Under the pieces are notes generated by a model. The model was not told where the DNA came from, ran no database searches, and saw nothing but the letters and a program-made list of their open reading frames with translations. Shown here in pieces: positions 13,985-22,932 of a stretch of 37,865 bases of DNA. Each line of letters opens with the position of its first letter. Position 1 is the stretch's first letter. Made by a program: the position numbers and the translations under genes. Source of the DNA: Verrucomicrobiota bacterium (lineage in GTDB: Bacteria > Verrucomicrobiota > Verrucomicrobiia > Palsa-1439); the NCBI GenBank assembly GCA_003152315.1, contig PLZV01000059.1, positions 1 to 37,865 of the forward strand. The letters run 5' to 3'.

Positions 13985-15016
13985 CTAGATTGCAGGCTGT
14001 TGCTGCGTCAGGCAGTGGAAAGACCCAAGCCCCCAAATCAGGTTGGTGCTGTCGATACCCACCACGCGTCGATCCTCAAAGAGCTTTTGTAGTGTTTCCA
14101 TTGCAGCCGCGTCGGTTTTCTGATTACGATAGGTTGGCAGCAGCACCGCCCCATTTGCGACATAGAAATTGGCATAGCTTGCCGGCAATCGTTGACCGTC
14201 GTATTCGATCACACCGGGCATCGGCAGCTCGACAACCTGCAGGGGGTTTCCATCCTGATCGCGCATCGCCCGCAGCCGTTTCCGATTCTCTTGCAGGGAC
14301 CAGTAATTGTCGTCTTGTGGATCCTGCTCGACGACCGTGACAACCGTGGTTGGGTTGACGAACCGCGCGAGATCGTCAACGTGTCCATCCGTGTCATCAC
14401 CGTCGATCCCGTCCCCAAGCCACAGGATGTTGGTGACCCCGAGATAATCGCGAAGATGTTGCTCGATTTGTTGCTGGTTGAGATGCGGGTTGCGATTTGG
14501 ATTGAGCAGGCAGGACTCCGTGGTCAGTAATGTTCCCTCGCCATTCACGTCGAGTGCGCCGCCCTCCATCACAATACCGGGGCTGAAAACTGGCAAACCC
14601 AATAACTCAGCGACGCGCCGTGGTACCGCATCGTCATCGTCGTACGGTGGGTATTTGCTGCCCCAGGCGTTGTAGTCCCAGTCCACGATGGCGAGTTCAT
14701 GGCCGTGCTTCACGAAAATCGGCCCATGGTCGCGGCACCAGGGTTCGTACGAGGGAATGTAATGGTAGAAGACGTTTCCGGTATCACCGATAGCCTGGCG
14801 AGCAACGGCTTCAACTTCTTCATCGCGGACATTGATGTCGACGCGTTCATACGGCGCCAGTGTCCGGACCATCTCGCCCAGCGTCGGGAGTGTCTCCGCA
14901 TAGCGGTCGGGAAAACTGATACCCTCGGGCCGCGGCCAACTCAGCCAGGTTGCCGCGTGCGGCTGCCATTCAGCGGGCATACGGTAGCCAAGTCCGCGTG
15001 GAGTTTTCGCGGCCAT
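13985..15016 (-). CDS. aguA: agmatine deiminase
   Basis: It hydrolyses agmatine to N-carbamoylputrescine and ammonia. The 343-aa product begins MAAKTPRGLGYRMPAEW and contains the family landmarks HAATWLSWP, PWCRDHGPIF, WDYNAWG, MEGGALDVNG, GDDTDGHVDD and, near the end, GLGSFHCLTQQQP with the nucleophilic Cys at about residue 335. A start further upstream is possible but would run into aguB. The chosen ATG at 15016 overlaps the aguB stop in TGATG, so the two are translationally coupled. With aguB and the decarboxylase it completes arginine-to-putrescine synthesis. Confidence 0.96.
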   Translation of the reverse strand: MAAKTPRGLGYRMPAEWQPHAATWLSWPRPEGISFPDRYAETLPTLGEMVRTLAPYERVDINVRDEEVEAVARQAIGDTGNVFYHYIPSYEPWCRDHGPIFVKHGHELAIVDWDYNAWGSKYPPYDDDDAVPRRVAELLGLPVFSPGIVMEGGALDVNGEGTLLTTESCLLNPNRNPHLNQQQIEQHLRDYLGVTNILWLGDGIDGDDTDGHVDDLARFVNPTTVVTVVEQDPQDDNYWSLQENRKRLRAMRDQDGNPLQVVELPMPGVIEYDGQRLPASYANFYVANGAVLLPTYRNQKTDAAAMETLQKLFEDRRVVGIDSTNLIWGLGSFHCLTQQQPAI

Positions 15017-15891
15017 CAGTCGAGCAGACGCTGAGTGATACCGCCGTACGCATCGATGCGGCGATCCCGGAGGAACGGCCAATGTTGGCGTGTTTCCTCA
15101 ATTTTGCGGAGATCGCATTTCGTGACGAGCACTTCCTCCTGGTCGTGACTCGCTTCAGCGATCACCTCGCCGAATGGGTCGCAAACGAACGAGCCGCCCC
15201 AGAACTGCACCGTGCCTTCCATTCCGATGCGGTTAGGCGCGGCCACGAACACGCCATTGGCGATGGCGTGGGAACGCTGGATCGTGACCCAGGCTTCGTG
15301 CTGTTTCTGTCCAAATTGTTTCTTCTCCTTCCGGTGCCAGCCGATGGCGGTCGGATAGAAAAGGATTTGTGCGCCTTTCAGCGCGGTAAGCCGTGCGCCC
15401 TCTGGATACCACTGGTCCCAGCAAACGAGCGTGCCGATGTTGGCATGCTTCGTCGCGAACGATTGAAAACCGAGGTCGCCTGGCGCGAAATAGAATTTCT
15501 CGTAATACAGCGGATCATCGGGAATGTGCATCTTACGGTACTTGCCCACGAGTTTCCCCTGAGCGTCGAGAATGACGACGGCGTTGTGGTAAACGCCCGC
15601 CGAGCGCTTCTCGAAGATCGAGCCCACGATGGTGACGCGGTGTTGGCGCGCGGCTTTCGCGAGCGCCGTGGTCGTTGGACCGGGAATCGGTTCGGCGAGT
15701 GCGAACTGGCGATGGTCTTCCGTTTGACAGAAGTAGAGCGAACGAAAGAGCTCCGGGAGACAAATTATCTGGGCGCCGCGTTCGGCGGCTTTCTTGACGA
15801 GGGCAAGCCCTTTCCGCAGATTCGCCTGCGGCTGCGACGTGCAGCGCATCTGGATGAGTCCGATAGTGACGATATTGGCGTTGGTAGCCAT
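15016..15891 (-). CDS. aguB: N-carbamoylputrescine amidase
   Basis: A nitrilase-superfamily enzyme that converts N-carbamoylputrescine to putrescine, CO2 and ammonia. The 291-aa product carries the Glu-Lys-Cys triad: E47 in LPELF, K120 in GKYRKMHIPDDP and C157 in TLVCWDQWYPE. FYFAPGD and WGGSFVCDPFG agree with the AguB subgroup rather than general nitrilases. It is the first gene of the minus-strand pair aguB-aguA and is divergent from the arginine decarboxylase, with a palindrome in the shared upstream region (15918-15943). Confidence 0.96.
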   Translation of the reverse strand: MATNANIVTIGLIQMRCTSQPQANLRKGLALVKKAAERGAQIICLPELFRSLYFCQTEDHRQFALAEPIPGPTTTALAKAARQHRVTIVGSIFEKRSAGVYHNAVVILDAQGKLVGKYRKMHIPDDPLYYEKFYFAPGDLGFQSFATKHANIGTLVCWDQWYPEGARLTALKGAQILFYPTAIGWHRKEKKQFGQKQHEAWVTIQRSHAIANGVFVAAPNRIGMEGTVQFWGGSFVCDPFGEVIAEASHDQEEVLVTKCDLRKIEETRQHWPFLRDRRIDAYGGITQRLLD

Positions 15892-15917
15892 GTGAAAAAT
15901 CCGTCAGAACCATGATG

Positions 15918-15943
15918 AATTTCTTGCATTGCTGCAAGAAATT
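15918..15943. promoter_or_regulatory. perfect inverted repeat in the putrescine divergon
   Basis: AATTTCTTGCA (15918-15928) and TGCAAGAAATT (15933-15943) are exact reverse complements around TTGC. The element is 26 nt after the aguB start and 35 nt before the decarboxylase start, inside the only intergenic space of the cluster. A weaker second inverted repeat, GTTTCTC/GAGAAAC (15945-15951 with 15966-15972), lies between it and the decarboxylase and encloses CCGCGCGG. The symmetry and AT-rich core suit an operator for a dimeric regulator acting on both directions. A hairpin in either leader is the alternative. Confidence 0.6.
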
Positions 15944-15978
15944 TGTTTCTCTTCCGCGCGGAGGCGAGAAACAACCAC

Positions 15979-16527
15979 ATGCATTTTGTTCCATCCAAGA
16001 TATTTTTGACCAAAGGTGTTGGGACCCACAAGCACGAGTTGCGCAGTTTCGAGTTGGCGTTGCGCGATGCGGGTATCGAGAAGTGCAACCTCGTGACCGT
16101 CTCGAGCATCCTGCCGCCGCGCTGCAAGATCATCTCCCGCAAGCAGGGCGAGCAATTGTTGCAGCCGGGGCAAATTACCTTTGCCGTCATCGCGCGCCTT
16201 TCCACCAATGAACCGCATCGGCTTATCGCCGCGTCGATCGGCGTGGCCCAGCCCGCCGACGAGGATGCGTATGGCTACCTGAGCGAATTGCACGCCTATG
16301 GCATGAACGACACCACCGCGGGCAATTTCTCCGAGGACATGGCGGCGGCCATGCTGGGGACGACGCTGGGTGTGGATTTCAATGAGGATGCCAGTTGGGA
16401 TGAAAAGGAGCAGGTTTTCCGGATGAGCGGCAAGATCGTTCGCACCAGCAATTGCACACAGACAGCGGTCGGCCATCCCCAGGGCCAATATTCCACGGTG
16501 ATCACCGCCGCGATTTGCCTCTTCTAA
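15979..16527 (+). CDS. pdaD: pyruvoyl-dependent arginine decarboxylase
   Basis: It decarboxylates arginine to agmatine using a covalent pyruvoyl group rather than PLP. The proenzyme self-cleaves between the two serines of VSSIL (S42/S43), giving a beta chain and a pyruvoyl-capped alpha chain. Other family features are [10 protein letters not shown] at the N-terminus, LPPRCKI, and [15 protein letters not shown] containing the active-site Glu. Length is 182 aa from ATG 15979. A start 12 codons upstream would overlap the palindrome and adds an atypical N-terminus. CGGAGG (15959-15964) is the likely, rather distant, ribosome binding site. It is divergent from aguB-aguA, which act on its product. 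Confidence 0.94.
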
Positions 16528-16578: not shown

Positions 16579-17061
16579 GTGAAAAACGACGTCGTTGAGG
16601 TACAAGTAAAGGGTGTGCTGCCGACAACCAACGGCTGCGCGGTCTTTGTGGGCAACGACGAGAAGACGTTCGTCATCTACGTCGATCACAGCGTTGGCGC
16701 GGCGATCACGATGTTCCTGCGCAGCACGCCGAAAGAGCGTCCGCTCACCCACGACCTCATCGGTCACATTTTCACCGGGCTGGGTGTGAAAGTTGAGCGC
16801 ATCGTCATTAACGACCTCAAGAACAGCACGTACTACGCGCGGCTCGTGCTGCGCGCGGAAAACGAACTCGGCAAGAAAATCCTGGAGATTGATTCCCGCC
16901 CCAGCGACTGCATCGCATTGGCGGTCCAACAGAAGAGCCCCATCTACGTCGCGACCAAGGTCTTCAGCGCAGTCGAAGACATGTCGGAAGTGCTTAAGCG
17001 CATGAAGCAGGAGGGTGGGGACGAGTTCACCGAGCAGGGTGAAGAAGGACAGAACGAGTAA
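16579..17061 (+). CDS. bifunctional nuclease family protein (DUF151)
   Basis: A member of the BFN/DUF151 family; some members have been reported as nucleases acting on DNA and RNA, but the bacterial role is not settled. The 160-aa product shows VFVGNDEKTFVIYVDHSVGAAI, RPLTHDLI, ERIVINDLKNSTYYARL and IDSRPSDCIALAV, the last being the most conserved family motif. An acidic tail ends the protein. The start is GTG at 16579, directly after a candidate -10 with no Shine-Dalgarno, which fits leaderless translation. Its stop codon shares the palindrome TAAGCGCTTA (17059-17068) with the stop of the convergent glycosyltransferase gene. Confidence 0.9.
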   Translation: MKNDVVEVQVKGVLPTTNGCAVFVGNDEKTFVIYVDHSVGAAITMFLRSTPKERPLTHDLIGHIFTGLGVKVERIVINDLKNSTYYARLVLRAENELGKKILEIDSRPSDCIALAVQQKSPIYVATKVFSAVEDMSEVLKRMKQEGGDEFTEQGEEGQNE

Positions 17062-22756: not shown

Positions 22757-22788
22757 CGGTGGGTTCGTTTTCCAAAACGAACCCACCG
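22757..22788. repeat. 15-bp perfect inverted repeat of the GGGTTCG element
   Basis: CGGTGGGTTCGTTTT (22757-22771) and its exact reverse complement (22774-22788) are separated by CC. The arm core CGGTGGGTTCGTTT occurs again as a single copy at 22860-22873, and a shorter piece CGGTGGGTT occurs at 131-139. It is therefore a head-to-head pair of the dispersed repeat unit, similar in form to REP/BIME elements. It would form a strong hairpin in RNA. Confidence 0.75.
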
Positions 22789-22863
22789 ATTTTCCGCAAA
22801 CTTTTATCGTGTAACCCATTGTATCACTGATGGATAAATGCAGTTTTCCATCAAAAAAACGGT

Positions 22864-22932
22864 GGGTTCGTTTCGCAGAAACGTATATAGGCCCCGAGCT
22901 GCGCACAGCAGCGAGTCGCGCCGTAGCCTGGC
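22864..22932 (+). repeat. composite dispersed repeat, copy 2
   Basis: The 17-mer GGGTTCGTTTCGCAGAA (22864-22880) matches copy 1 exactly (98-114, opposite strand). GCCGTAGCCTGGC (22920-22932) follows it, a variant of GCCATAGCCTTGGC in copy 1 (56-69). Order and orientation are conserved, while the spacer differs in sequence and length. Confidence 0.7.

Follow-up and report, generated by a model that had tools for sequence, protein, structure and literature searches.

The bidirectional promoters of Escherichia coli and Salmonella, as described in the accessible parts of two reports, have a symmetric -10 element in common, with start sites 7-25 bp apart (PMC12825309, PMC10268837). For the agmatine genes of Pseudomonas aeruginosa, the accessible part of the relevant source describes AguR as a TetR-family repressor that binds the aguBA promoter between its -35 and -10 elements (PMC4287709). 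Here we analyze a 37,865-nucleotide stretch of DNA from a Verrucomicrobiota bacterium (hereafter, the window), in which a perfect palindrome separates aguBA from a divergent pdaD gene. The pdaD product makes agmatine and the aguBA products consume it. A literature search returned nothing on pyruvoyl-dependent arginine decarboxylase in Verrucomicrobia, and the named near relatives of this lineage in our data set are metagenome-assembled. We conclude that the palindrome region is real and conserved, a shared control region of an ordinary kind present in a single copy, and that the locus is a candidate for a compact divergent promoter region on the agmatine route to putrescine.

Results

The pdaD gene (positions 15979-16527, plus strand; pyruvoyl-dependent arginine decarboxylase, Pfam PvlArgDC) lies opposite aguB (15016-15891, minus strand; N-carbamoylputrescine amidohydrolase-like, Pfam CN_hydrolase) and aguA (13985-15082, minus strand; agmatine deiminase-like, Pfam PAD_porph), the true start of the latter probably being later than the annotated TTG. 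The gap between the start of aguB (15891) and that of pdaD (15979) measures 87 bp. In agreement with the initial annotation, which reported no adjacent regulator gene, none was recognized when 20 ORFs of the window were scanned with Pfam; two of the 20 matched nothing. A bifunctional nuclease domain (PF02577) is encoded by an ORF that begins 51 bp past pdaD (16579-17061, plus strand), and by eye similar ORFs follow pdaD at loci L007 and L031.

The palindrome, delimited from the sequence and by genome search, occupies positions 15918-15943 (26 bp, no strand) and consists of the 11-bp arms AATTTCTTGCA (15918-15928) and TGCAAGAAATT (15933-15943) around a TTGC loop (15929-15932), letter for letter and position for position as first annotated. 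Its improbability in some 90 bp, asserted at that time, is borne out by dinucleotide shuffling of the 87-bp gap: an inverted repeat with perfect arms of at least 11 bp and a loop of at most 10 arose in 11 of 20,000 shuffles. In the 1.57 Mb scanned of the 4.89-Mb genome, there are 40 perfect inverted repeats with arms of at least 11 bp and 23 with arms of at least 13 bp, 17 of the latter being copies of one unrelated dispersed palindrome. These many dispersed palindromes would favor a chance or mobile-repeat origin for the element between aguB and pdaD, an explanation that we consider extremely improbable, since its letters are unlike those of the dispersed family, it is conserved across the bacterial family and, with up to three mismatches allowed, it occupies a single place in its own genome. 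The scattering over unrelated sites named beforehand as grounds for discarding the palindrome was thus not seen; at the same tolerance it was matched in 7 of the 11 family genomes, always upstream of pdaD.

The window holds one longer perfect inverted repeat, at 22757-22788, with 15-bp arms (CGGTGGGTTCGTTTT-CC-AAAACGAACCCACCG) and a partial copy at 22860-22883. It is a member of a dispersed REP-like family whose pattern, GGGTTCGTT-N2-14-AACGAACCC, occurs at 71 places in the window genome (G000) and 54 in G002, compared to 0 for the reversed control, and at none in the nine other family genomes, the same-genus G001 included; this looks like a recent expansion.

Family and order comprise the same 11 genomes in this data set. 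All 11 carry pdaD, and upstream of it all 11 carry a 45-bp block that holds the palindrome (15909-15953 in the window, plus strand), defined by 11-genome alignment, profile search and identity comparison, and aligning without gaps. Columns 15-20 (CTTGCA), G30, A32, T34, T36, G37 and T39 are invariant. Mean pairwise identity in the block core (columns 15-40) is 0.78, versus 0.43 at fourfold sites of pdaD, with the core ahead in all 55 genome pairs, and versus 0.30 in the 30 bp left of the block; the check proposed with the palindrome, that arms be conserved while flanks drift, is therefore satisfied. Perfect 11-bp arms were seen solely in the window's genus (three genomes), a point against the operator as first annotated. 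The wider symmetric core is approximately CTTGC-N6-GCAAG, exact in seven of the eight genomes with an agu gene divergent from pdaD and off by one mismatch in the eighth (G005), and the outer base pairs that extend the arms from 5-7 to 11 may have arisen by chance. The second inverted repeat reported to follow the palindrome (15945-15972, no strand; GTTTCTC at 15945-15951, GAGAAAC at 15966-15972) is present as described but not conserved in the alignment: it is exact in the window only, with an outer base altered in G002 and the first arm altered in G001, and is not kept in other genera.

A profile built from the 11 block sites (R1), which recovers those sites by construction, found the block once per family genome, except for two occurrences on two contigs of G005, and revealed no comparable second site in the 11 genomes (E of at most 10, 150 candidates scored per genome), the next best match having an E value of 0.106. 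Under strict filters, with 16 candidates per genome scored, R1 gave across 384 genomes of the class seven weak matches outside the family (E 0.0015-0.0095), where about four are expected by chance. The core pattern CTTGCRNNNNYGCAAG was matched 37 times in the 11 genomes, compared to 33 for its reversed control; 12 of the matches fall in G001, 7 of these being copies of one repeat. We rejected a multi-site regulon, as there is no strong second block and the core pattern occurs at about the frequency of its reversed control; a regulator with one single target in the genome is possible. A separate observation concerns CTTGCAGTCGCGCAAG, which, in either orientation, occurs seven times in G001 (contigs C24, C34, C51, C54 and C61) and, among the core-pattern matches listed, is absent from the other family genomes, marking another genome-specific repeat.

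Within the class, pdaD was found in 17 of the 384 genomes, 11 in this family and 6 in a second family (f4), in which four of the six pdaD genes lie 8-17 bp behind a co-directional ORF, these four loci having no such block. Of 80 pdaD loci kept for a search of up to 300 bp upstream, none of the 73 from outside the family contained the palindrome core or the plus-strand element; the seven family loci, which are assemblies already among the 11 genomes and hence not independent, contained the plus-strand element in 7/7 and the exact core in 4/7. An ab initio motif search in 125 upstream regions yielded no clear promoter motif.

The gene divergent from pdaD is aguB in seven family genomes (G000, G001, G002, G005, G006, G007 and G008) and aguA in G010. 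No aguA match was found in G003, G009 or G004, and aguB has only distant matches in G003 (34% and 27% identity) and none in G009 and G004. These three genomes thus retain pdaD without an aguA match, so that their agmatine must be consumed in some other way, perhaps through agmatinase; at the G004 locus, a Clp-like ORF (by eye) runs towards pdaD and stops 97 bp short of it. The left arm, CTTGCA, has 6/6 bases in 11/11 genomes, whereas the right arm (columns 24-29) has 5-6 of 6 bases in all eight genomes where an agu gene is divergent and 0, 0 and 1 in the other three, each half of the palindrome thereby tracking its gene. Columns 1-6 retain 5-6 of 6 bases with the agu gene versus 0, 4 and 2 without it, and columns 30-37, on the pdaD side, 7-8 of 8 versus 6, 7 and 8. 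Because the right arm goes with the agu gene and the pdaD-facing part stays, each arm seems, from the alignment, to serve the gene that it faces. In a PdaD tree, the branches of G003 and G009 are about as long as those of G010 and G005, which makes plain decay a poor account for these two; the G004 branch is long. Support for the tree is weak (3 of 10 inner branches starred), and its separation of G004 from G003 and G009 is not to be leaned on. The genomes without agu genes represent two genera only, and G004 is 75% complete.

We read the palindrome as the core of a shared pdaD/aguBA promoter region, with overlapping divergent sigma70 promoters whose -35 boxes lie in the arms, and give this reading close to even odds, at a probability of about 0.48. 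The left arm would supply the TTGCA-type -35 of pdaD, TTGCAT at 15924-15929 (plus strand, within the invariant CTTGCA), with a weak putative -10, TTCTCT, at 15947-15952 (plus strand), 17 bp from the -35 and directly preceded by the invariant TG. The right arm, on the minus strand, would supply the -35 of aguBA, TTGCAG at 15932-15937, with a predicted -10, CATGGT (CATCGT in other genera), at 15909-15914 (minus strand), again 17 bp away. The predicted start sites fall at about 15959 for pdaD and 15902 for aguBA. RNA polymerase could then occupy only one of the two promoters at once, implying competition, and a regulator binding at the palindrome would act on both pdaD and aguBA; perhaps such a regulator sits on top of the overlapping promoters.

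In the eight agu genomes, the minus-strand -35 reads TTGCAG, TTGCGG, TTGAAG or TTGCAC and the -10 CATCGT or CATGGT; on the plus strand, TTGCAT or TTGCAA is accompanied 17 bp on by TTTTCT-like hexamers, with the TG before the hexamer invariant. A promoter scan ranked the proposed minus promoter as the top minus-strand match in six of the eight agu genomes and second in two. The proposed plus promoter ranked first in 5 and second in 2 of the 11 genomes; in the remaining 4, which include the window, it fell outside the three best plus-strand matches. With about a hundred positions to choose from, a best match at the single-site p values observed (0.001-0.048 plus, 0.004-0.014 minus) is nothing out of the ordinary. 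Such scores are not striking in a stretch of this length, and by itself the scan proves nothing. Both proposed -10 hexamers are poor, that of pdaD lacking the A at -11, and with promoter scores this unremarkable our confidence stays tentative. Clearer promoters, with TTGAC, TTGCG or TTGAA 17-18 bp from a TA-initial hexamer, precede 7 of the 16 tRNA genes of this genome by eye, and TTGCGT is the likely -35 ahead of 2 of the 16, again by eye. In G003 the gene divergent from pdaD is an unrelated one and has TTGACA-18-TATGAT. Sigma54 and Bacteroidetes-type promoters were also considered and, by eye, did not fit. In G008 the gap shortens to 62 bp and in G006 to 66 bp, leaving little space for other elements between the genes. 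The conservation of the block exceeds the need of a weak promoter. With -10 boxes this weak and clearer promoters elsewhere, either these are weak promoters aided by an activator, or the block has another role.

Such conservation also speaks for an operator, as does the dyad itself, which is exact throughout the window's genus and in its core in all agu genomes except one, and so does the binding of AguR within the aguBA promoter of Pseudomonas aeruginosa, according to the accessible part of the source (PMC4287709). A dimeric repressor or activator encoded elsewhere would then bind CTTGC-N6-GCAAG and control the two genes according to the supply of agmatine, putrescine or arginine, in much the way that AguR acts on the Pseudomonas aeruginosa aguBA. 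We regard this as possible but doubtful, as all three genomes without a divergent agu gene keep the left half site and have lost the right, a separate loss that one dimer operator would not predict and on account of which we favor divergent promoters. The half sites are thus not always kept together; neither R1 nor the core pattern, at near-control frequency, located further sites at other polyamine genes in the 11 genomes, and the Pfam-scanned ORFs nearby offered no recognizable regulator. The polyamine operator of the initial annotation accordingly keeps its conserved arms, drifting flanks and unscattered occurrence, but loses ground through the right arm that disappears alone and the second repeat that is not kept. 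Its neighbor genes are all that ties the site to polyamines, as a candidate operator. The promoter and operator readings may both be true together.

The inverted repeat could instead act as RNA, forming an attenuator or riboswitch-like hairpin in the leader of pdaD or of aguBA. Compared with shuffles, the region folds better on each strand (z -3.09 and -3.41), and in nine alignment cells a pair is retained on the plus strand through a one-sided G-U change; against this, none of the 11 pairs shows the two-sided changes that compensation would leave, paired cells amount to 70.9% compared to 70.7% in shuffles, G003, G009 and G004 have no matching stem, and no Rfam family reached its gathering score. 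We therefore rejected the hairpin for want of covariation and rate it very unlikely. Even less credit goes to a short leader peptide whose frame runs through the palindrome ([12 protein letters not shown]...), and we likewise rejected it: in 9 of the 11 genomes its ATG has the same position, and in G004 it lies one codon later, but G009 has a stop codon in the frame, and invariant columns number 4, 3 and 5 of 13 at codon positions 1, 2 and 3, hence no codon pattern. Nor is its end conserved, since the frame stops before pdaD in G007 and G010, is in frame with pdaD in G008 and overlaps pdaD in the window.

Discussion

One arm has been lost together with one operon; this natural experiment allocates either half of the palindrome to one gene, and it cautions against taking every palindrome for a dimer operator. 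A more elaborate arrangement, which we think unlikely, would be a built-in toggle, in which a symmetric -35 within one RNA polymerase footprint makes initiation at pdaD and aguBA mutually exclusive, tuned by a family-specific single-target regulator.

With Pseudomonas aeruginosa, the locus has the same genes in common, and one can imagine a site for a regulator over the aguBA promoter; the comparison covers gene content and the position of the site, and no aguR-like gene was recognized beside the Verrucomicrobiota locus (PMC4287709). Like the bidirectional promoters of E. coli and Salmonella, described in the accessible parts of the two reports, the locus would present symmetric DNA that engages RNA polymerase both ways, with competition possible (PMC12825309, PMC10268837). 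Unlike them, it has its symmetry in the -35 region, its proposed -10 boxes at opposite ends of the block instead of a shared symmetric one, and predicted start sites about 57 bp apart. It differs from the overlapping divergent sigma70 promoters known between back-to-back bacterial operons in its weak -10 boxes and in having starts predicted from sequence, and resembles them in its two opposite genes and short gap and, as proposed, in facing -35-like boxes with 17-bp spacers.
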